Below, in pieces: positions 18,188-29,502 of a stretch of 64,000 bases of DNA. Below the pieces are notes generated by a model, which ran no database searches, was not told the DNA's origin, and worked only from the letters and a program-made list of their open reading frames with translations. How positions within the stretch are numbered: position 1 is the stretch's first letter; every line of letters begins with the position of its first letter. The stretch comes from Acidimicrobiia bacterium (GTDB lineage Bacteria; Actinomycetota; Acidimicrobiia; IMCC26256; PALSA-610). Location: the NCBI GenBank assembly GCA_036271555.1, contig DATBAK010000085.1, positions 62,001 through 126,000 on the forward strand, in the 5' to 3' direction. The position numbers were made by a program, and so were the translations under genes.

Positions 18188-20137
18188 TCAGTACTTCATG
18201 GCCTTGAGGAAGAACAACCCGTTCGGGGTGCCCACGCCGGTCATGTCGTCGTAGCCGGGCAACGTGAAGATGTGCGTCGGCACGCCGATCGTCTGGAGCA
18301 GATACGCGTAGCCCTGGTTGTCGTTGAGGTTGTTCACGTAGTTCGTGCGCACCGTCGCCTCGGGGGCCGACGAGTGCTGAACGTCGGTGATCGCCGCTTC
18401 GTTGCTGTTCTGGTACACGAGCGGGTTGATGAACCCGACCGCCGCGCCGTGGTTGTACTCGATCGCGTCGGCCACGACCCCCGCGAACAGCGGTGACGAC
18501 AGGCTCGTGCCGCCGAGACGGTACGTCTCGTAGCGCGTGGTCTTGCCGAAGACCTGCGTCTCGCCGATGCGGAGGCCGGTGTTCGGGTCGCCCGGCATCG
18601 AGATGTCGGGCACCGCGCGCATCGGCGTCTTGCCGCCGTTGTACTCGCTGATCGACGTCGGCACGACGCCGGCCTGGTACCACGGCTGCTCGTAGAGCTT
18701 GCTCGTGCCGCCACCGCTGCCGCTGCTGTACGGACCCGGAGGCTTCGGCTTCCACTGGTTGCCGTCGAGCGTGGCGTACGCGTTCGACCAGCCGTCCTGG
18801 AAGACGATCTTGCCGTTGGCGCCGATCTCGGTGCTCGTGCCGCCGATGCCGGTCGCCCACGGGCTCGACGTCGGGAAGTTCACCGACTTGCCGATCGTGC
18901 CCGACTGGTCGCCGTCGTCGCCGCTCGAGAACATCACGGTGATGCCGGTCGTCGCGGCCTGCTGCAGCTCGTTGTCGAAGAACGTCCGCTGGCCTTGCGG
19001 CACGTTCTCGCCGTTGTTGGTCCACGAGTTGGTGATGACGCTCGCCTTGTGGTCGTCGATGACCGACGCCCACGCGCGGTTGAGGCCGCCGATGCAGTTC
19101 TCGCCACCGACGTAGAGCACGTTCGCGCCCGGTGCCATCGCGTGCACCGACTCGACGTCGAGCGTCTCTTCGCCGTACCAACCCTGCGGGCCGCACAGGT
19201 CCGCGTGGTCGAAGCCGTCGGGCTGCGGGATGTCCTGCTTGAACTGGCCCTTCGCGAACTTCGGGATGTCGTTGTCGTTCGACCAGCGCTGCGCGTCGGC
19301 GAGGATCGTCGGCGCCGCGTACGCGTCGGTGATGGCGACGGTGACACCGTGGCCGTTGTGACCGGCCGCGATCGCGCCGCTCAGGCCGAACGCGCTCTGG
19401 TACTGCTTCGCGTTGTAACCGCAGATCGTGTACGGCCAGGTCTGCCCGTACGCCGGCGGCTTGTCGGTCGCCGTCTGCTGGCCGTAGTAGTCGGAGCAGG
19501 GTTCGACGCCGTAGCGGACGCCGGGCGGCGGACCGGGCTCGGTGTCGGCGGGTGTGCGCAACGCGAAGCTGTCGTCGAGGTCGACGATGCCCGCGACCTT
19601 CGACTTCACGTCACTCGACACCTGGTAGTCCGCGACCGGCGCCGCGAGCTGCTTGCCCTGGTACGAGTAGATGTGCATCGACGTACCGACGAGCGCCTCG
19701 GCCTGCGCCATCGTGCCGGTCGCCTCGAGGTAGAGGCGGCTCGACGCGACGGACGCGACCTGCAGGCCCGAACTGCGGACCCACGCGCTCACCGCGTCGA
19801 CGTCGGCGGTCGACGGCGCGTACCGGTCGCGGAACTGCGCCGCCGTGAGGAAGTGACGGAACGATGCGCTCGACGGCGACGACACCGCGCGCGCTTCCGC
19901 GGCCAACCCCGCGGCGTCGGGCACTGCGAGTGCGACCTCGAAGTCGACGCGCCGGTTCGCCGGCGCGGCCCCGAGGTCGACGGCCGACGCGGCGAACGCG
20001 GGTCGGCTGTGAGCCAGCGTGACGCGGGATGTGGATGCCCCCGCGCCGCTGGTCCCCACCGCAACCCCCGCGGTGAGTGCGCCCACGGACGCCACCACGA
20101 TGGCGACGCGAGCATGACGAACGGCTCGACCAAACAT
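18188..20137 (-). CDS. Sedolisin / S53-family secreted peptidase with pro-domain
   Basis: 649 residues. A signal peptide (IVVASVGALTAGVAVG) is followed by a pro-kumamolisin activation domain (to about residue 190) and the subtilisin-like catalytic domain. The Ser of the S53 Ser-Glu-Asp triad lies in LGGTSLSSPLFAGVV; EETLDVESVHAMAPGA carries the Glu/Asp pair; GYDDMTGVGTPNG is the C-terminal Ca2+-binding loop. Sedolisins are acid-active endopeptidases that self-cleave their pro-domain after export, so this one probably digests protein outside the cell, perhaps in acidic niches. ATG 20137 has an AGGAGG 8 nt upstream, better than the TTG one codon before. Transcribed alone, with a hairpin terminator downstream. 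Confidence 0.92.
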   Translation of the reverse strand: MFGRAVRHARVAIVVASVGALTAGVAVGTSGAGASTSRVTLAHSRPAFAASAVDLGAAPANRRVDFEVALAVPDAAGLAAEARAVSSPSSASFRHFLTAAQFRDRYAPSTADVDAVSAWVRSSGLQVASVASSRLYLEATGTMAQAEALVGTSMHIYSYQGKQLAAPVADYQVSSDVKSKVAGIVDLDDSFALRTPADTEPGPPPGVRYGVEPCSDYYGQQTATDKPPAYGQTWPYTICGYNAKQYQSAFGLSGAIAAGHNGHGVTVAITDAYAAPTILADAQRWSNDNDIPKFAKGQFKQDIPQPDGFDHADLCGPQGWYGEETLDVESVHAMAPGANVLYVGGENCIGGLNRAWASVIDDHKASVITNSWTNNGENVPQGQRTFFDNELQQAATTGITVMFSSGDDGDQSGTIGKSVNFPTSSPWATGIGGTSTEIGANGKIVFQDGWSNAYATLDGNQWKPKPPGPYSSGSGGGTSKLYEQPWYQAGVVPTSISEYNGGKTPMRAVPDISMPGDPNTGLRIGETQVFGKTTRYETYRLGGTSLSSPLFAGVVADAIEYNHGAAVGFINPLVYQNSNEAAITDVQHSSAPEATVRTNYVNNLNDNQGYAYLLQTIGVPTHIFTLPGYDDMTGVGTPNGLFFLKAMKY

Positions 20138-20264
20138 CAACTGGCCCTCCTTTGCCTGACACGAGAGTCCACCCGGCCGGAAGCCTGGGGCGGTCGCGCG
20201 CGGTGCGTCAAGCGCGTGCCGAAGGAATGTTGCGATTCGTTGCGCGCGTACCGTTCCGATTTCC

Positions 20265-20368: not shown

Positions 20369-22600
20369 CTATTCGACTGCGCCGGCCTCGCGCAGCGAGT
20401 CCCGCGTGGCCGCGTCGAGGCCGAGCACCTCGCCGAGCGCCCAGTCGGTGTCCTGGCCGAGCGTCGGACCGCCGCGCGAATAGCCACCGGGACACGCCGC
20501 GAGGCGCGTTCCCGTGCGCTCGTACATCGTGTCGCCGACGACGGGATGCGTCATCGGCACGAAGTGCTCGCGGTACGCGAGCTGAGGGTCGTCGTGGAGG
20601 TCGCCGAAGTCCTGGACGGGCACGGCTTCGATCCCGGCGCGCTGGAGTCGCTCCGCGATCTCGGCGCGCGTGCGGGCGCGGGTCCACGCCTCGATGTCGT
20701 CGGTGCCCGCGATGGCGTGCAGGCGCGCGAGCTCGTCGTCGGTCCAGCACGCGATCGCGATCCAACGATCGCGGACACCGTCCTCGTCGGCACACGCGAA
20801 CGCGCCGTGCAGCAACGCGCGCGTGTCGTCGTTGCCGTTGCGCTGACCGATGACGCCGTCGACCGCGTAGTCGAGGAGCCACGGCGCGAGCGACCAGCTC
20901 GCGGATTCGACCTGCGAGACGTCGAGGTACACGCCGCGTCCGGTGCGCCGGCGGTAGTGCAGTCCTGCGGCGAGCGCGGTCGCGACGTAGCGCGGCGCGA
21001 GCGAGTCGGTGATCGTGCCGTACGGTCCGCACGGCTCGCGGTCGGGCCAACCGGTGAGCGCGTTGTAACCCGCGAGCGCGGAGCCCTGCCCACCGAAGCC
21101 GGGATAGTCCTTGTGCGGACCGGTCTGCCCGTTCAAGCAGGTGCTGATCATCACGAGGTCGGACCGCAGCGGCGCGAGTGAGTCGTAGTCGAGACCGAAT
21201 CCCTTCATCGCGCGGGGCGCGTAGTTCTCCGCGACCGCGTCGGCCCACTCCACGACGAGGCGCTTCACGAGCTCGACCGACTCGGGTTTCTTGAGGTTCA
21301 GCGTGAGGTTGCGCTTGCCGACGTTGAGGCCGTCGTAGAGCGGTGCGCCTTCGAGGCCGTGCGGATGGCTCGGGTCGGCGAGCGCCATCGTGCGGAGGAA
21401 GTCGGGCCGCGTGCGCGACTCGACGCGCAGCACGGTCGCGCCCTGCTCGATGAAGTAGCGCGTGGCGATCGGCCCGGCCGCGCCCGAACCGAACTCGAGG
21501 ACCCTCAACCCGTCCCACGCGCCCTTGCCGGTGGCGCGTGCTCCGGACGCGGGCCTCGTGCGCGCCGGTGTGCTCGCGCTGACCGACGGCCCCGCGATGC
21601 CGACCTCACCGTCGGCCGATCGCAGGAGGACGAACGCGCGAGGGAACCGCGCGACGTCGCCGAGGGGACCGAAGAAGTCGCGCGACGCGAGCTGCGCCGA
21701 CGCGTAGATCTCGCGCGGCGAGTTGATCGGGGCGAGCATCAGGTTCGTCTCGCACGCGATGTCGTAGAGCTCCTGCATCGAATGCTTCGCGAAGTACGTG
21801 CCGACCTTCTGCTCGACGGCCTTGAGCTCGTCGTCGGTCGCGGTGTTGACGTTCCACTCGCTCCAGTCGCGCGCCGGGAGATCCGCGAGCTTCGCGATGA
21901 GCTCGAGGCTCGCGATCCGCGCCTTGCCGCCCCGCAGCCCGAACGACACGAACCCGTCGAGCGTCGGCCAGATCTCGCGCGTGCGGCCGATGTTGGCACC
22001 CGCGCGCCGCCCGCGCTGGCCGGTGCGCGGGTAGTTCGCGGGCGCGGCCATGCTCGCGCTGATCACGACTTCTTGCATCGAGACGTCGACGATCTGCGGG
22101 ATGCCGGACCACAGCCCCGAGAGCGCGGCGAACGCGGCTTCCCCGCCGCTGTGCGCGTAGCCCGTGGGCTCTGCGCAGCGCAGCGGCGCGCGATCGGGAT
22201 CGCCCGTGCAGTACATGTTGCCGCTCGCGGCCATCACGCCGAGGTTCGACGCGCGCCAGGTGGAGCGCGGGCCGTCGATGCCGAACGGGGTGACGTGCAC
22301 CCACACGGCCTGCGCCGCGCGCGCCGGGTCGAGCACGTGCGTGCCGGGGACGTCGGGAGAGTCGAACACGATGTCGACGTCGCGCAGCAGCGCGTCGAGC
22401 TCGCTCGCGTCGGCGGCGAGCGTGTGCACGCGCTTGCCCGCGTTCCACGCGCGCTCGACGTTGCCGGTCAGTACGTCGCCCGGAGTCGGGACGACGCGAT
22501 CGACGGACGCGCCGAGGTCGCCGAGGATGCGCGCCGCGCGCGCCGCGGCGTCGCCGCCGAGGTCGAGGACGCGGACGCCCTCGAGCAACCGTTCGGTCAC
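20369..22600 (-). CDS. Double-domain CaiB/BaiF (class III) CoA-transferase
   Basis: 743 residues with two CaiB-like copies. The first starts EGVRVLDLGGDAAARAARIL, the second near residue 350 (WDGLRVLEFGSGAAGPIATR). The second copy has the expected catalytic Asp in GTITDSLAPRYVATAL and the YLDVSQVES helix. The first reads GYAHSGGEAAFAALSGLW where an Asp would normally stand, so it may be structural (inference). Class III enzymes move CoA between a donor acyl-CoA and a carboxylic acid, often to activate a degradation substrate. It is the last gene of a three-gene unit, 10 bp after the thiolase, so it likely supplies or recycles the CoA thioester used by that module. Confidence 0.88.
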   Translation of the reverse strand: MTERLLEGVRVLDLGGDAAARAARILGDLGASVDRVVPTPGDVLTGNVERAWNAGKRVHTLAADASELDALLRDVDIVFDSPDVPGTHVLDPARAAQAVWVHVTPFGIDGPRSTWRASNLGVMAASGNMYCTGDPDRAPLRCAEPTGYAHSGGEAAFAALSGLWSGIPQIVDVSMQEVVISASMAAPANYPRTGQRGRRAGANIGRTREIWPTLDGFVSFGLRGGKARIASLELIAKLADLPARDWSEWNVNTATDDELKAVEQKVGTYFAKHSMQELYDIACETNLMLAPINSPREIYASAQLASRDFFGPLGDVARFPRAFVLLRSADGEVGIAGPSVSASTPARTRPASGARATGKGAWDGLRVLEFGSGAAGPIATRYFIEQGATVLRVESRTRPDFLRTMALADPSHPHGLEGAPLYDGLNVGKRNLTLNLKKPESVELVKRLVVEWADAVAENYAPRAMKGFGLDYDSLAPLRSDLVMISTCLNGQTGPHKDYPGFGGQGSALAGYNALTGWPDREPCGPYGTITDSLAPRYVATALAAGLHYRRRTGRGVYLDVSQVESASWSLAPWLLDYAVDGVIGQRNGNDDTRALLHGAFACADEDGVRDRWIAIACWTDDELARLHAIAGTDDIEAWTRARTRAEIAERLQRAGIEAVPVQDFGDLHDDPQLAYREHFVPMTHPVVGDTMYERTGTRLAACPGGYSRGGPTLGQDTDWALGEVLGLDAATRDSLREAGAVE

Positions 22601-22610
22601 GACAGCAGGA

Positions 22611-23807
22611 TCAGCCGAGCCGGCTGCCGAGGATCGACACGAACGACACCATCTCGCCGGGGTACCCGCCGAGATTGTGCGTCAGCGCGAGCCCGCGGTC
22701 GGCGTGCTTGATCGTGCGCTCGGGCGGAGCCTCACCGCGCAGCTGGAGCCACGACTCGAACACCATGCGCAGGCCCGAAGCGCCGACCGGGTGGCCGAAG
22801 CTCTTGAGCCCGCCGTCGGGGTTCACCGGCAGCGCGCCCTCGAGGTCGAACGTGCCGTCGAGCACTTCCTTCCACGCGGTGCCGCGCTCGGCGAACTGCA
22901 GGTCCTCGTAGATGAGGAGCTCGGCGGGCGTGAAGCAGTCGTGCACCTCGGCCATCGCGAGCTGCTCGCGCGGGTTCGTGATGCCGGCCTGCGCGTATGC
23001 GTCACGACCGGTGGCCGCGATCTCCGGGAACGTCGTGTAGTCGTAGTCGGGGTCCGCGTTGCCGGAGCAGTTGCCCGCGACGAGCGACAGCGCCTTGATG
23101 TAGACCGGCTTGTCGGTGTACTTGTGCGCGTCCTCGGCGCGGACGATCACCGCGGCTGCGGAACCGTCGGCGACGCCGGAGCAGTCGTACACGCCGAGCC
23201 CGCCGGCCATGAGCGGCGCGTTGCAGATCGTCTCCATCGAGACCGGCTTGCGGAACTGCGCGCGTTCGTTCTTCGCGCCGTTCTGGTGGTTCTTCCACGC
23301 GATGCGTGCGAGCACCTCGCGCATCTGGTCGTCGTCGAGCCCGTACTTCTTGCCGTATCCGGGCGAGCACATCGCGAACATCGCGGCCGCGGTGAGCGTG
23401 CGACCGGTGCCGTCGGTCGGCGTCTTGCCCGCGCCGACGAGGCCCTGGTAGCCGCTGTCCTTCACCTTCTCGATGCCGATCGCCATCGCCATGTCGAACG
23501 CGCCGCTCGCGACCGCGTAGGCCGCGTTGCGGAGCGCCTCCGACGCGGTCGCGCAGAAGTTCTCGACGTGCGTGACCGGCTTGTCGTGGAGCTGGAGCGG
23601 CCGGGCGAGCATCATGCCGCTCATGCCCGACATCGCGGTGCCGAGCCAGTAGGCGTCGACATCGTCCTTCGTCACTCCGGCCGACGCGAACGCGTCGGCC
23701 GACGAGTCGATCATGAGGTCGTCGGCGCTCTTGTTCCAGTGCTCGCCGAAGGGCGTGCACCCCATTCCGACGATGGCGACGCGGTCCTTGATGCCGTTCG
23801 AACTCAT
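22611..23807 (-). CDS. SCP2-type thiolase / lipid-transfer-like acyl-CoA enzyme
   Basis: 398 residues, the normal length of SCP2-thiolase-like proteins. N-terminal block VAIVGMGCTPFGEHW; nucleophile region VENFCATASEALR (Cys85); later VHDCFTPAELLIYEDL and GHPVGASGLRM hold the His-containing C-terminal active-site segments. In actinobacteria such thiolases act in fatty-acid or steroid side-chain breakdown, either as true thiolases or, when paired with an OB-fold partner, as retro-aldolases. It lies between the HMG-CoA-synthase-like/OB fusion (16 bp upstream) and the CoA-transferase (10 bp downstream), so a complex with the fusion protein is likely. Confidence 0.9.
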   Translation of the reverse strand: MSSNGIKDRVAIVGMGCTPFGEHWNKSADDLMIDSSADAFASAGVTKDDVDAYWLGTAMSGMSGMMLARPLQLHDKPVTHVENFCATASEALRNAAYAVASGAFDMAMAIGIEKVKDSGYQGLVGAGKTPTDGTGRTLTAAAMFAMCSPGYGKKYGLDDDQMREVLARIAWKNHQNGAKNERAQFRKPVSMETICNAPLMAGGLGVYDCSGVADGSAAAVIVRAEDAHKYTDKPVYIKALSLVAGNCSGNADPDYDYTTFPEIAATGRDAYAQAGITNPREQLAMAEVHDCFTPAELLIYEDLQFAERGTAWKEVLDGTFDLEGALPVNPDGGLKSFGHPVGASGLRMVFESWLQLRGEAPPERTIKHADRGLALTHNLGGYPGEMVSFVSILGSRLG

Positions 23808-23823
23808 GTGCGCTCTCTTCTCG

Positions 23824-25233
23824 CTACGCCCGTACGGGGCGGGCCTTCCAGAAGTAGTTGTGGATCTCGTCGGAGGTGAACAGCCGGCGGAACGTCATCT
23901 CGACGCGGTCGCCCATCTTCAGGTTCGCGGCGTCGACGTCGCAGAGCTCGACCGGGAGCCGGCCGCCGCCGTCCCAGTCGACGACCGCGAACACGGTCGG
24001 CGGGCTCTGGGAGTAGGCGATGCGGTCGATCGTGACGAGCGCGATCGTGCCGACGGCGTCGGCCATCGGCGCCGCTTCCATCTCGTCGACCGCGTCGCCG
24101 ACGCGCGAGACGCGCGCGGGCGGCATGTGCAGCTCACCGCTCGATCGATCGCGTGAAGCGACGAAGCCGTACTTCCAACCCTCGGTACGGCCCGACACCG
24201 ACGCGGAGATGCGGTCGGGCTCGGGACGCCGGGGCGGCTCGATCGAGACCGCGCCGCGCCAGCTCAGGTACTTGCTGTACGGGAGGTCGGCGGCGTTCTC
24301 GATCTGGCTCGCGATCGTGCGCGCCGCCGAGTAGTTCGCGATCGCGTCGGTCGCGCGGAACACGAGGACGTCGACACCGTCGGCGAGGACGACGACCGCG
24401 ATGACCTCGCCGGGCTTCGCATTTTCCAGCGCGTTCGTGAGGAGCAGCGCGGCGTGCGCGGTGCCGGTGTTGCCGACGGTCGCGGCGAGGTCCTCCGCGA
24501 GCGCTTCCTTCGCGACCCCGAGCTTCGCCGCGATCCCGCGTACGGCCCGCGTGTGCATGCCGGTGACGATCACGCGCGCGACGCCGTCGGTCGAGACGTT
24601 CGCGGCCTTGAGCGCGCCGTTCCACGCCTGCTCGGCGAGCGGCCCGTACTTGACTTCGCCGAAGCGCTCCTCCCACTGGCGGGAGCGGGTCGAGCCGGGC
24701 GAGCGCCAGCGCTCGATGAACTCCTCGGTCGCGCTCGCGCCGCCGAGGTACTCGGCGATGACCGGTGCGCTCGAGTCGTCGCCGACGAGGAGCGCGGCGG
24801 CACCGTCGCCGGTCGCGGCCTCGTCGACACTCGTGGGCAACCCGGTGCGCAGGTCGGCGGTGACGACGAGCGTCGTGCCCCGGCCGTCGAGCGCGGCGCG
24901 GATCGCGCCGGGCCCGGAGCGCAGCGCGCCACCGAAGTCGAACGCGGCCACGTCGGAGTCGAGCCGGAGCGCGGCGTGCACCGTCGACGCGTTGTTCTTG
25001 TCGAGGTACGCGGGTTCCGCGGTCGCGAACCAGAGCGCGCTCGGTGTTGCCGACGCGGGTGCGGCCCGGAGCGCGAGGCGCGCGGCCTCGACACCCATCG
25101 TCGTCGTGTCCTCGTCGTAGGACGCGACCGAACGGGTGCCCTTGCCCCCGCCGCTCCCGAACGTCTTCGCGATCTCCGCGCGCTGGAGGCGCCGGTACGG
25201 GACGTACCCGCCGGCGCTGATGATGCCTCTCAT
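23824..25233 (-). CDS. Cys-less HMG-CoA synthase-like domain fused to an OB-fold (DUF35/ChsH2-type) domain
   Basis: 469 residues. Residues 1 to about 350 follow the HMG-CoA synthase/KAS III fold (GIISAGGYVPYRR, TGDGAAALLVGDD, TVGNTGTAHAALLL). The remaining ~120 residues are an OB-fold tail (ARVSRVGDAVDEM, FAVVDWDGGGRLPVELCDVD, KMGDRVEMTFRRL) resembling DUF35/ChsH2. At the nucleophile site the sequence is AAFDFGGALRSG, so the catalytic Cys is absent; the only Cys in the protein is in the OB tail (VELCDVD). The DUF35 CxxC zinc ribbon is also missing. Claisen chemistry through an acyl-Cys is therefore impossible; a scaffold, CoA-channelling or retro-aldol role with the adjacent thiolase is more likely. 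First gene of the operon; ATG 25233 follows a TAGACT -10 by 7 nt. Confidence 0.82.
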   Translation of the reverse strand: MRGIISAGGYVPYRRLQRAEIAKTFGSGGGKGTRSVASYDEDTTTMGVEAARLALRAAPASATPSALWFATAEPAYLDKNNASTVHAALRLDSDVAAFDFGGALRSGPGAIRAALDGRGTTLVVTADLRTGLPTSVDEAATGDGAAALLVGDDSSAPVIAEYLGGASATEEFIERWRSPGSTRSRQWEERFGEVKYGPLAEQAWNGALKAANVSTDGVARVIVTGMHTRAVRGIAAKLGVAKEALAEDLAATVGNTGTAHAALLLTNALENAKPGEVIAVVVLADGVDVLVFRATDAIANYSAARTIASQIENAADLPYSKYLSWRGAVSIEPPRRPEPDRISASVSGRTEGWKYGFVASRDRSSGELHMPPARVSRVGDAVDEMEAAPMADAVGTIALVTIDRIAYSQSPPTVFAVVDWDGGGRLPVELCDVDAANLKMGDRVEMTFRRLFTSDEIHNYFWKARPVRA

Positions 25234-25316: not shown

Positions 25317-26441
25317 ATGCGCGGGCGCGATCGGGGGGACCGCGGGCGGGTGCGGGTGAGCGACGTGGTGGGTGTCCCGATGCTGCCACCGGCGCGAATG
25401 ACCATCGCGACGACCCGGCTGCGGGCCGCGCTCCTGTCGCTCCACCGGCGCATGGCGCCGCCGCCGGTCGGGATCCTCGAGTCGATGCTCGGCCTGCTCG
25501 ACAACGCCGCGCTCGTCGCGTGCTGCGAGCTCGGGATTCCCGAGCGTCTGACGCGCCCGATGCGGGTCGACGAGCTCGGGGCTGCGCTCGGAGTCGAGGT
25601 CGAGCCGCTCGATCGGTTGCTGCGGTTCGCCGCGGCGCGCGGTTGGCTCGCCTTCGGTCGCGGCGACCGGGTCAAGCCGACGCGGACGACGCGGTTCCTG
25701 CGCGCCGATCATCCGGGCGGTTGGCGGGCGTGGGTCGACTTCGCAGGCTCCGGAGAGGTGTCGTCGGCGGCGCGGGCGTTGTCGGATTCGACGCGCGCGG
25801 GAACGAGCGGCTTCGCGCACGCGCACGGCGCCGAATTCTTTGCGTGGATGACCGATCATCCCGCCCGCCACGCGGTGTTCGACGGCGCGATGGACGCGGG
25901 CGCGCGGCTGCACGCGCTCGCGCTCTCGGCTGCGCTCCCGTGGCGCGAGGCGTCGCGGGTCTGCGATGTCGGCGGCGGCTCGGGCGCGCTGCTGCGCGCG
26001 TTGCTCGGCGCGCACTCGCATCTCTCCGGCGTGCTGTTCGACCTTCCCGCAGTGATCGCCCGCGCCGAGCCACACGATCGGATCGAGCCGGTGGGAGGCG
26101 ACGCGTTCGCAGCGGTACCGGCCGGTTGCGACACCTATCTCTTGGTCAACGTGCTGCACGACTGGGGCGACGACGACTGCGCGCGCCTGCTCGGTCGCGT
26201 CGCGGATGCGATGCCGGCCGACGGCCGCGTCGTGGTCGTCGACGGCGAGCGGGCGCAGCGTGCTCTCGACACGATGAGCACCCGTACCGATCTGCTCATG
26301 CTCGTGCTCACCGCGACCGGGAAGGAGCGCACGACCGCGGAGTTCGGCGCGCTGGGCGGGCGCGCGGGTCTCCGGCTCGCGCGGTCGATCGAGCTCGCGT
26401 CGGGCGACCGCGCACACGTGTTCTCGCGCGCCCCGGCCTGA
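25317..26441 (+). CDS. SAM-dependent O-methyltransferase (caffeate/hydroxyneurosporene type)
   Basis: 374 residues. The N-terminal helical dimerisation domain (GLLDNAALVACCELGIPERL) precedes a Rossmann domain with motif I VCDVGGGSGALLRALL, LFDLPAVIARA, and the late NVLHDWGDDDCARLL block typical of Methyltransf_2 enzymes that use a His/Asp pair to deprotonate a phenolic hydroxyl. ATG 25317 has a GAGGA 8 nt upstream; in-frame ATGs at 25380 and 25398 also precede the domain. Substrate unknown; no biosynthetic cluster surrounds it. Convergent with the LAL regulator. Confidence 0.85.
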   Translation: MRGRDRGDRGRVRVSDVVGVPMLPPARMTIATTRLRAALLSLHRRMAPPPVGILESMLGLLDNAALVACCELGIPERLTRPMRVDELGAALGVEVEPLDRLLRFAAARGWLAFGRGDRVKPTRTTRFLRADHPGGWRAWVDFAGSGEVSSAARALSDSTRAGTSGFAHAHGAEFFAWMTDHPARHAVFDGAMDAGARLHALALSAALPWREASRVCDVGGGSGALLRALLGAHSHLSGVLFDLPAVIARAEPHDRIEPVGGDAFAAVPAGCDTYLLVNVLHDWGDDDCARLLGRVADAMPADGRVVVVDGERAQRALDTMSTRTDLLMLVLTATGKERTTAEFGALGGRAGLRLARSIELASGDRAHVFSRAPA

Positions 26442-26454
26442 CCCGGCAGGCGGA

Positions 26455-29400
26455 TCAGGCCGTCGCGGCCTCGTCGACGCCGAGCCCCGCGCGCTGCCCG
26501 ATCTCGCCGGCCTCGACGCGACTCGATACGTCCAGCTTGCGCAGGATGTTCGAGACGTGGACGCTCGCGGTCTTCCGGCTGATGTAGAGCTGGTCGGCGA
26601 TCTGTCGGTCGGTGCGGCCGCGGGCGAGCTGGTCGAGCACCTCGACCTCGCGCGGCGTCAGATCCAGGTCCTCGGCGACGCGTTCCGACAGTGGCTGTGC
26701 GTCGTCGTCGGACCCTGTGTCGGTCAACGCGAGGCGCGCCCGCTGCGCGAGCCGTTCGATGCGGGTGACGAGCGTCCGAGCGCCCATCTGCGCCGCGAGC
26801 CGGCGCGCTTCTTGCAGGCGCTGCGTCGCGCGCGGACGGCCACCGCGCGACTGGAGCAGCGCGTCGGCCTCGCGCCAGCGACAGTACGCGCCCTCGTACG
26901 GCTGACCGATCCCGTCCCAATGCGCCGCGGCGTCGGCCCAGAGCTCGGCGTCGGGCTCGTAGAGGCGAGCGTGCTCGGCGCGCGCGGTCGCCCGCCACGC
27001 GACGACTGCGGGCAGCGCACCGACGTCGGCATCCGGACGTTCGATGAACTCCTCGATCGCGTCGAGCCGTTCGGTCGCGAGCAGACGGGCCTTGTCGACG
27101 TCCGGCCGCTTCGTACGCACGCGCGCGTCGTCGATTCCGTCGGCGATCGTGCGCAGCGCGAGCGCGCCCAGCTCGACCTGGAACGGGTCGTCGGTGCCGG
27201 CGGCCAGCGCGAGCGCGCCGTCGATCGACCGCTGCGCGTCGTCGGGGCGGCCTTCGCTCAACGCGAGCTCGGTCGCGATCGCCTGGAACACGCCGCGGAA
27301 ATCGATCTCCACCAAGCCCTCGGTCGCCGCCTCGAGCTGCGGTGCGAGCTCGGTCGCGAGGTCGTTGTCGCCGCGGCGCACCGCGATCACCATGCGCAGG
27401 AGCGGCGGCGAGATCTGGCAGTTGCCGGCGAGACCGCCGAGGTCTTCGAGCAGACCGAGCGCCTCGTCGGTGCGGCCGAGCGAGATCAGCGCCTGTGCGC
27501 TGTTCACCGCGGCTCCGTTCAGACGGATGCCGCCGAGCGCCTCGCCCATCGCGATCCCGTCGAGCGCGACCGCGGCCGACTTCTCGAGCAGCCCGGCGTG
27601 CAGCAGCAACAGGCTGAGGTGCGTGTAACCGAGGTTGAGGTTGTCGGGGATCTCGAGCTCCTCGGCGATCGCGAGCGCCTGGTGCACGGCCTCGATGCCA
27701 CCCGCGAAGTCGCCGATCATGCCGAGACACATGCCGTAGGTGTCGAGCGCGTGACCCTCTTCGGCGCGCGCGCCGACTTGGCGCGCGACCGCCATCGCGC
27801 GCCGGCAGAGCTCGACCGCGTCGTGGAAGCGCGCCATGAGCAGCAGACAGCGGCTCTGGAGCGCGAGCACGCGCGCGAGCTCGACGGTGGGCGGGTCGTC
27901 GCCGAGCATCTCGGCCGCGGTCCGGAAGAGCTGGAAGGCGCGTTCCGTCTCGCCGAGGAGGAACGTGTTGCGCGCGAGGCGGGCCTGACACAGCGCGGCG
28001 CGTTCGGGCTCGGCTTCTTCGTCGACGAGCTCCAGCGCGAGCTGCCACAGCTCGCACGCGCGTGCCGACGACGCGCCGAAGTACGCGGTGTCGGCCGCGC
28101 CCTCGACGAGCTCGAGATACGCGTGGTCGTCGAGACGATCGGTCTCGGCGACGCGGTCGTTCGCGGCGAGCGCGCGGTCGTAGTGCGCGTAGGCCTCCGG
28201 CATCGCGAGCAGCGCGGTCATCGCGCGCGCAGCAGCGATCGACGCGTCGCGCGCTTCCTTCCAATCGCCCGCCGCCCACCAGTGCGCGGCGAGCTCGACC
28301 GACGCGTGGGTTGGTCCGGCCGCGCTCAGCTCGGGCTTGGCGGTGAGCTCGACGGCGAGGCGGTGGTGCAGGACGCCGCGATCCGTCGGCAGCATCGCGT
28401 CCGAGATCGCATCGCGTTGGAGCGCGTGACGGAACGCGAACCGATCGTCGTCGACGACGACGAGGACTCCGCGTTCCACCGCCCCCGCAATCGCCGCGTA
28501 GAGCTCCGCGTCGTCGAGATCGCAGACGGCCGCCAGCAGCCGATGGTCGACCTTCGATCCCGCGGCCGCCGCCACGGATACGACGCGCCGCGCCTTTGCC
28601 GACAACCGGTCGATGCGCAGGAGGATGACGTTGCGCAGCACCGACGGCAGCGACGTCGCGTCGCGCGCGGCCGTGAGCTCCTCCGCGAAGAAGGGGTTCC
28701 CGGCACACCGAGCGTGCACCGCGTCGACCAGGGCCCACTCGGGCTGCCGGCTGAGGATGCCGGCCATGAGCGCGGCGATCGCGTCGCGGTCGAGGCCGGT
28801 CAGCTCGACCTGCGAGACCGCGCGATGACGGCCGAGCTCGGTAAGCACCCGGCGCAGGGGTCGCGCCTCGTCGGGCTCGTCGTTGCGGAAGGTTCCGACG
28901 ACGAGCACGGGCGCGTCCGCGAGGTTGCGCACGAGAAAATCGAACAGGTCCATCGTCGCGGAGTCGGCCCACTGGAGATCTTCGAACACCACGACGACGC
29001 GTGCCCGCTCCGCGAGCGCGGTGAGGCAGAGCAACACGGACTCGAAGAGGCGCGTCTTCGCGAGCGCGCCCGACGGCGTCGCGTCGTCGCTCGCGGTCGA
29101 CGGCTCGACGAGCCCGAGCTCGCGACGCACCGCGAGCAGCGCGGAGCTCGCCGCCGGCTGGTCGAGGACCTTGCCGAGCTCGCGCACGATGCCGAGCAGC
29201 GGCGCGTACGGAAGCCCGCCGCCGTCGGCCGGAGTGCAGACACCGGTCGCGATGCAGGCACCGGCGGCACGGGCGCGCGCACGGAACTCCTCGACCAAAC
29301 GCGTCTTGCCGATGCCGGCCTCACCGCCGACCAGCACGGTGCGCGCCCCGCTCGTCTCGAGCGAGGCGAACACCGTGCACAGCCGGTCGAGCTCGGTCTC

Positions 29401-29502
29401 CCGACCGGCGAACGTCGTGCTCGACAACGGCTCGCCCACCGCGAAAGTGTCCCACAGGGTCCTTCCGTCGGGGTCGGGCGATGCCGCGCGCGGGTCGGTC
29501 AC
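26455..29502 (-). CDS. LAL-type LuxR-family regulator (AAA ATPase + LuxR HTH)
   Basis: 1015 residues. An N-terminal STAND/AAA ATPase has Walker A GGEAGIGKTRL and Walker B VVVVFEDLQWADS. A long TPR-like helical middle is followed by a C-terminal LuxR HTH (DLTPREVEVLDQLARGRTD, then SRKTASVHVSNILRKLDV). This is the large ATP-binding LuxR (LAL/MalT-like) architecture, where ATP and an inducer switch oligomerisation. Its GTG overlaps the stop of the preceding DUF4242 gene (GTGA), so translation is coupled and the small protein may belong to the same signalling unit. Targets unknown. Confidence 0.9.
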   Translation of the reverse strand: MTDPRAASPDPDGRTLWDTFAVGEPLSSTTFAGRETELDRLCTVFASLETSGARTVLVGGEAGIGKTRLVEEFRARARAAGACIATGVCTPADGGGLPYAPLLGIVRELGKVLDQPAASSALLAVRRELGLVEPSTASDDATPSGALAKTRLFESVLLCLTALAERARVVVVFEDLQWADSATMDLFDFLVRNLADAPVLVVGTFRNDEPDEARPLRRVLTELGRHRAVSQVELTGLDRDAIAALMAGILSRQPEWALVDAVHARCAGNPFFAEELTAARDATSLPSVLRNVILLRIDRLSAKARRVVSVAAAAGSKVDHRLLAAVCDLDDAELYAAIAGAVERGVLVVVDDDRFAFRHALQRDAISDAMLPTDRGVLHHRLAVELTAKPELSAAGPTHASVELAAHWWAAGDWKEARDASIAAARAMTALLAMPEAYAHYDRALAANDRVAETDRLDDHAYLELVEGAADTAYFGASSARACELWQLALELVDEEAEPERAALCQARLARNTFLLGETERAFQLFRTAAEMLGDDPPTVELARVLALQSRCLLLMARFHDAVELCRRAMAVARQVGARAEEGHALDTYGMCLGMIGDFAGGIEAVHQALAIAEELEIPDNLNLGYTHLSLLLLHAGLLEKSAAVALDGIAMGEALGGIRLNGAAVNSAQALISLGRTDEALGLLEDLGGLAGNCQISPPLLRMVIAVRRGDNDLATELAPQLEAATEGLVEIDFRGVFQAIATELALSEGRPDDAQRSIDGALALAAGTDDPFQVELGALALRTIADGIDDARVRTKRPDVDKARLLATERLDAIEEFIERPDADVGALPAVVAWRATARAEHARLYEPDAELWADAAAHWDGIGQPYEGAYCRWREADALLQSRGGRPRATQRLQEARRLAAQMGARTLVTRIERLAQRARLALTDTGSDDDAQPLSERVAEDLDLTPREVEVLDQLARGRTDRQIADQLYISRKTASVHVSNILRKLDVSSRVEAGEIGQRAGLGVDEAATA

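Follow-up and report, generated by a model that had tools for sequence, protein, structure and literature searches.

A fused, zinc-less HMG-CoA synthase–like/DUF35 protein paired with a thiolase, a probable scaffold in Acidimicrobiia steroid catabolism

What might a protein with the fold of 3-hydroxy-3-methylglutaryl-CoA (HMG-CoA) synthase do when it lacks the nucleophile of that enzyme? This question is raised by three minus-strand genes in a 64,000-nucleotide stretch (the window) of contig DATBAK010000085.1 (C85 in our numbering), part of the 4.68-Mb draft genome of an Acidimicrobiia bacterium. Separated by gaps of only 16 and 10 nt, they encode a fusion of a synthase-like domain with an oligonucleotide/oligosaccharide-binding (OB) domain, a thiolase, and a CoA-transferase, in that order. 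An earlier note had recognized this arrangement, which profile matches and the co-directional genes confirm, and had suggested a complex that keeps the scaffold but has lost Claisen condensation, possibly a retro-aldol or CoA-shuttling unit fed by the CoA-transferase. By homology alone, the widespread gene pair of fusion and thiolase would be taken for an HMG-CoA synthase and an acetyl-CoA acetyltransferase. We read it here as a dead scaffold and a live thiolase, most likely acting in the catabolism of steroid rings C/D.

Results

The synthase-like half of the fusion

The fusion is a 469-residue protein (23824..25233, minus strand) in which profiles, alignment, an AlphaFold2 model, and a fold search delimit a synthase-like domain (residues ~1–330; 24244..25233) and a ribbon/OB domain of DUF35 type (~331–469). 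Residues 2–329 match the archaeal HMG-CoA synthase profile NF003274 with 131.8 bits, below its cut-off of 244, and TIGR00748 is likewise not reached (83.5 vs. 353 bits). In an alignment with chain I of 6ESQ (E 8e-18), the HMG-CoA synthase of an archaeal complex, catalytic Cys114, Glu82, and His238 correspond to L104, A72, and T224 of the fusion. L104 lies within FDFGGALRSG (residues 98–107; codons at 24913..24942, minus strand), the former nucleophile motif to which the earlier note had pointed. We compared 130 fusion homologues from overlapping collections, 118 of which are distinct; in none of these 118 is any of the three catalytic columns occupied by Cys, Glu, or His, which shows that the loss was not a chance event in one gene. 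The residues are also gone in more distant actinobacterial fusions sampled across the phylum (30 loci, 28 of them additional to the homologue set).

No functional nucleophile was found elsewhere in the aligned fusion. As the earlier note had said, the OB tail holds all the Cys there is: the sole one is C431, and 40 of the 118 distinct homologues are entirely devoid of Cys, so an alternative nucleophilic Cys was rejected. E73 was discarded as a displaced catalytic Glu because it is not conserved. We also rejected a genuine HMG-CoA synthase, since the catalytic residues are gone and PF01154 has no match in the genome.

The scaffold itself is well preserved. For the AlphaFold2 model (predicted local distance difference test 93.7; predicted template modeling score 0.94), the closest folds are the synthase-like subunits of three solved thiolase–DUF35 complexes, namely 6esq_I (Z 42.9; 2.0 Å over 329 residues), PhlA (Z 41.5), and MucA (Z 38.7), while stand-alone HMG-CoA synthases score lower (Z ≤36.0). 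The HMG-CoA synthase fold and the kinship to the archaeal complex are therefore retained, in line with the earlier note. PhlA provides a characterized precedent, because it lacks the catalytic Cys and Glu (it has Gly115 and Cys83), and acyl transfer involves residues of PhlC only (PMC6392133). Judged by its residues, the synthase-like half of the fusion is catalytically dead, and since the loss is common to distant homologues and PhlA, this state is old and precedented.

The ribbon/OB half

The C-terminal domain (23827..24243, minus strand) matches PF01796 (OB_ChsH2_C) at residues 395–449, with 36.3 bits against a cut-off of 27.1. When its 140 residues were folded alone, DUF35 subunits were the best matches, with Z scores of 14.0 for 6esq_F, 13.5 for MucABC, and 13.4 for PhlB (13.2–13.4 for the PhlABC DUF35 subunits), and ChsH2 and Shy ranked next (Z 12.6). 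The match covers the ribbon region despite the missing zinc ligands, which are replaced (SRDRSSGELHMPPARVSRVGD). In a tree of 90 fusions, the four Cys ligands are absent from the 68 rows of the clade containing the window fusion and present in the other 22. This corresponds to a single change, supported by a Shimodaira–Hasegawa-like approximate likelihood ratio test value of 96. The zinc-less clade holds the window fusion and all five members from loci with ipdABC.

The window genome also encodes a second, distant fusion (contig C48, 14931–16337; ~26–28% identical) with its zinc ligands kept; after it come a thiolase belonging to it, an enoyl-CoA hydratase (ECH), and a short-chain dehydrogenase/reductase (SDR), which looks like another pathway with the same architecture.

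The thiolase and its pairing with the fusion

The adjacent gene (22611..23807, minus strand) encodes a 398-residue SCP2-type thiolase that matches NF004810 (PRK06157) with 579.9 bits (cut-off 403). Its similarity to archaeal 6esq_A (E 7.5e-51) exceeds that to PhlC (E ~1e-22). All 109 distinct partner thiolases (125 rows) keep C85, H289 and C291 of the HDCF motif, and H339 of GHP. Going by these residues, the thiolase is catalytically intact, and with its catalytic set complete, the lost chemistry is confined to the synthase half. The proposed loss of Claisen condensation thus holds for that half but not for the unit.

Fusion and thiolase form a conserved gene unit. The thiolase lies directly downstream of the fusion on the same strand in 127 of the 130 loci with room for it, and the distant clades mostly have the stop codon of the first gene touching or overlapping the start codon of the second. 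The distance matrices of the two proteins are correlated (Mantel r 0.90), a value from which the species tree was not removed and much of which common descent alone would give. At three loci, a distance of ~0.9 kb (L086 and L107) or 2.2 kb (L118) separates the matched thiolase from the fusion. Both proteins as one open reading frame (ORF) were not seen, an odd overlap at L159 looking like a frame problem.

Comparison with known complexes

By 2010, DUF35 domains fused to members of the thiolase superfamily had been noted, as had PhlA as an inactive partner from that superfamily (PMC2954200). A dead synthase-like subunit and the three-part architecture are therefore already known. A literature search found no description of the present fusion.

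The closest fold is offered by the archaeal acetoacetyl-CoA thiolase/HMG-CoA synthase/DUF35 complex (6ESQ/6ET9), in which, by contrast, the synthase is active and serves mevalonate synthesis. In PhlABC (PpATase/CsATase; 5M3K and 9SKH), as here, a synthase-like protein without Cys and Glu, an intact thiolase-fold protein with Cys and His, and a DUF35 OB protein are encoded together, and the fusion matches these structures with Z 40–41.5 and 13.2–13.4 for its two halves. However, PhlA and PhlB are separate chains, whereas the window fusion and its homologues are one chain; furthermore, PhlABC catalyzes CoA-independent C-acylation in antibiotic biosynthesis, unlike the zinc-less fusion with its catabolic neighbors. 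MucABC of Streptococcus macacae (9VBO/9VBT) also has OB and thiolase-like subunits and a synthase-like subunit with Glu in place of the Cys, but again as separate chains, with tetramate acylation as proposed activity. The benzoylsuccinyl-CoA thiolase BbsAB (7PXP) shares the combination of thiolase and DUF35 in CoA-ester catabolism but has no synthase-like part; a benzylsuccinate CoA-transferase is the best Protein Data Bank match of the window CoA-transferase. By sequence and predicted fold, the window fusion is a fused, zinc-less variant of the PhlABC/archaeal architecture. It is neither an HMG-CoA synthase nor, with one chain replacing two, a strict PhlABC member. This one-chain joining of PhlA and PhlB equivalents, together with the single loss of the zinc site, gives a handle on what synthase-like and DUF35 parts do in such complexes.

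Association with genes for steroid ring C/D catabolism

IpdAB hydrolyzes ring C in the catabolism of the steroid intermediate methylhexahydroindanedione propionate (HIP). The identity of the mycobacterial HIP thiolase is less clear, since FadA5 can replace FadA6, to which it is 38% identical (PMC5380842). The fusion–thiolase pair is a candidate for this step, to which several lines of genomic evidence point. For the relatives, a simple codon-score script supplied the gene calls, and presence in genomes was judged by E-value thresholds that we chose. The names EchA20, FadE30, and IpdF follow gene order, Pfam class, and similarity within loci, and among these pathway names only IpdA was compared with solved structures, matching 6co6 (E 4e-105) and 6con (both ~1e-105).

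In 198 genomes of the class, 54 have both fusion and IpdA, 11 the fusion only, 8 IpdA only, and 125 neither, counts that are not corrected for kinship. Within the window's order, the fusion, a paralogous fusion, and the CoA-transferase all track IpdA, which makes that part uninformative; the discriminating evidence thus comes from other orders and from gene clusters. Outside the window's order, the corresponding counts are 18, 7, 3, and 119 (p 1e-14, kinship ignored), and the 21 genomes with IpdA include 18 with the fusion, 2 with the paralogous fusion, and none with the CoA-transferase.

Gene clusters tell the same story. At two loci (L193 and L199), the pair ends a cluster encoding ECH, IpdA, IpdB, IpdC, MaoC, an SDR, and a major facilitator superfamily transporter, with a divergent CaiB gene; L193 additionally has an AMP-ligase, an IpdF-like SDR, and an acyl-CoA dehydrogenase (ACAD). 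At three others (L194, L195+L196, and L197+L198), ECH-IpdABC genes lie ~15–24 kb or less from the pair. Among the called genes of these five stretches, no other thiolase was recognized, FadA6 not having been searched for in the genomes. The usual divergent partners of the fusion in relatives, CaiB-ACAD-CaiB-MaoC-MaoC(-ACAD), sit on contig C44 in the window genome. The nearest solved structures to their MaoC proteins are ChsH1/ChsH2, and one ACAD of the set is nearest to steroid-type ACADs (4x28 and 6wy8). Linkage to and co-occurrence with IpdABC therefore mark the pair as a predicted HIP pathway enzyme. As called, the window-genome IpdA ORF (L190, 9213–10739) is much extended at its N terminus (508 vs. 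~282 residues), possibly owing to a wrong start.

Discussion

We propose that the fusion is a non-catalytic scaffold, equivalent to PhlA plus PhlB (or to archaeal HMG-CoA synthase plus DUF35) in a single chain, and would partner the adjacent thiolase, which would be the catalyst. Cys85 of the thiolase would take the acyl group from a 3-ketoacyl-CoA, HDCF and GHP would do the acid/base work, and CoA would complete thiolysis (or the reverse Claisen reaction). Both parts of the fusion, dead synthase and OB, would hold the complex together and probably assist acyl-CoA binding. The role would most likely be a thiolase step of HIP catabolism beside IpdAB, IpdC, and EchA20, candidate steps being HIP-CoA side-chain thiolysis, formation of 4-methyl-5-oxo-octanedioic acid (MOODA)-CoA, or the last β-ketoadipyl step. 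A similar step, thiolysis after IpdAB, is proposed for mycobacterial FadA6, for which, unlike here, no scaffold partner is reported. The sequences, the dead and live active-site residues, the conserved pairing, the fold matches, and the association with ipd genes are what we observed; from these we infer complex formation, a shared CoA site, the thiolytic direction, and the substrate. We consider the scaffold/catalyst reading with a HIP role probable, its HIP assignment being supported by genomics. A more specific version, possible though somewhat doubtful in our view, is that the dead synthase half forms an acyl-CoA–binding chamber passing the ring-opened β-keto-CoA to the thiolase. A ring C/D thiolase step in Acidimicrobiia would then belong to a PhlABC-like complex, a catabolic branch of the thiolase/HMG-CoA synthase/DUF35 architecture.

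Several points weigh against this proposal. The complex is deduced from genes and folds, and the co-occurrence statistic takes no account of phylogeny. Inside the window's order, the co-occurrence with IpdA is about as good for the paralogous fusion as for the fusion itself. Of the 11 genomes with the fusion but without IpdA, 4 are only 68–88% complete, but there are complete ones among the rest. The window genome has the fusion, the IpdABC cluster, and the ChsH-like cluster on three separate contigs. Finally, zinc-bearing relatives have other gene surroundings, and the wider family thus has roles besides this one.

This last point feeds the strongest alternative, in which the same dead-synthase/thiolase complex serves ordinary or other peripheral β-oxidation, for example of acetoacetyl-CoA or branched acyl-CoA, and the steroid tie merely reflects large catabolic genomes. 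Neighbors of the zinc-bearing relatives include ECH, SDR, and ACAD genes but no ipd genes, the paralogous fusion tracks IpdA within the window's order, and NCBIfam names the thiolase an acetyl-CoA acetyltransferase. Yet large catabolic genomes would not readily explain why, in other orders, IpdA is followed by the fusion so much more often than by the paralogue or the CoA-transferase, nor why the pair is found inside ipd clusters of distant families. We regard this alternative as unlikely, if still a serious contender.

A much smaller chance attaches to a C-acyltransferase of PhlABC/MucABC kind, making an acylated product and involving no catabolic thiolase. PhlA/PhlB and MucA are indeed among the nearest folds, and an O-methyltransferase gene (Methyltransf_2) stands divergently next door. 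Neighbors across the class are, however, catabolic (ACAD, MaoC, ECH, and IpdABC), and the thiolase has HDCF, the PRK06157 profile, and far better matches to archaeal thiolases than to PhlC.

Less likely still is a retro-aldol complex, in the manner of Ltp2/ChsH2 or Sal/Shy, with the CoA-transferase as its feeder, as the earlier note had suspected. Those aldolases do combine a thiolase fold with DUF35 in steroid catabolism, ChsH2 and Shy DUF35 match the OB half, and ChsH1/ChsH2-like MaoC genes are frequent neighbors. But the nucleophilic Cys is missing from known thiolase-fold retro-aldolases (Gly replaces it in Sal, which relies on Tyr/Cys elsewhere, and Ltp2 relies on a Tyr pair; PMC12329534), whereas the window thiolase and its relatives keep the full SCP2-type set, which leaves a retro-aldol function unsupported. 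In addition, these systems have no synthase-like part and their DUF35 is carried by a MaoC hydratase, which is not the case here; one relative has a separate Ltp2-like gene that exceeds the NF005892 cut-off, with a small DUF35-like ORF after it; and the CoA-transferase is unlinked in relatives. The hint at steroid degraders proved useful all the same, albeit through the HIP pathway rather than an Ltp2 aldolase.

Hardly any weight falls on a non-Cys activity (hydrolysis or decarboxylation) of the synthase-like half through D40-E41-D42, R105, and H227, charged residues that are strongly conserved in the clade but make no known triad, H227 being present in 101 of 118 distinct homologues and thus not universal, and for which the PhlA precedent makes a non-catalytic role sufficient.

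The CoA-transferase and other neighboring genes

The third gene (20369..22600, minus strand) encodes a 743-residue class III CoA-transferase with two CaiB domains in tandem (PF02515, 325.9 bits; best structure match 9fn0, E 6e-39). A motif and a single alignment place Glu (SMQE and SQVE) in both halves at the position of the usual class III catalytic Asp. Glu also occurs in relatives (at L177 the C half alone matched), suggesting that this may be an atypical enzyme. Although co-directional with the pair, it was rejected as a conserved third member of the unit. Of 14 genomes from the family, 13 have orthologues, located away from the fusion; in the five relatives examined, they lie beside an ACAD and an IpdF-like SDR, with ipdA 5–13 kb off on the same contig. 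The window genome has one copy only, at the fusion, and on its contig C40 the IpdABC, IpdF-like, and ACAD genes are not accompanied by it. The adjacency is thus a rearrangement particular to the window genome that joins two genes, both of them followers of one pathway, and the idea of a unit fed by the CoA-transferase is left unsupported.

In relatives, a frequent divergent neighbor of the fusion is a different, single-domain CaiB. At six loci from other lineages (L078, L080, L081, L087, L095, and L111), a second tandem CaiB family (729–775 residues, ~30% identical to that of the window) lies downstream of the pair, so that tandem CaiB arrived next to it more than once.

Downstream of the CoA-transferase, the window encodes a kumamolisin/sedolisin-type protease with a pro-domain (18188–20140; PF09286 and PF00082). 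The divergent O-methyltransferase gene adjoining the fusion (25398–26441; Methyltransf_2 plus dimerization domain) was not seen as a conserved neighbor. It is followed by a gene for a large LuxR-family ATPase regulator (26455–29502; AAA_16 plus GerE, 1,015 residues), possibly a local regulator.

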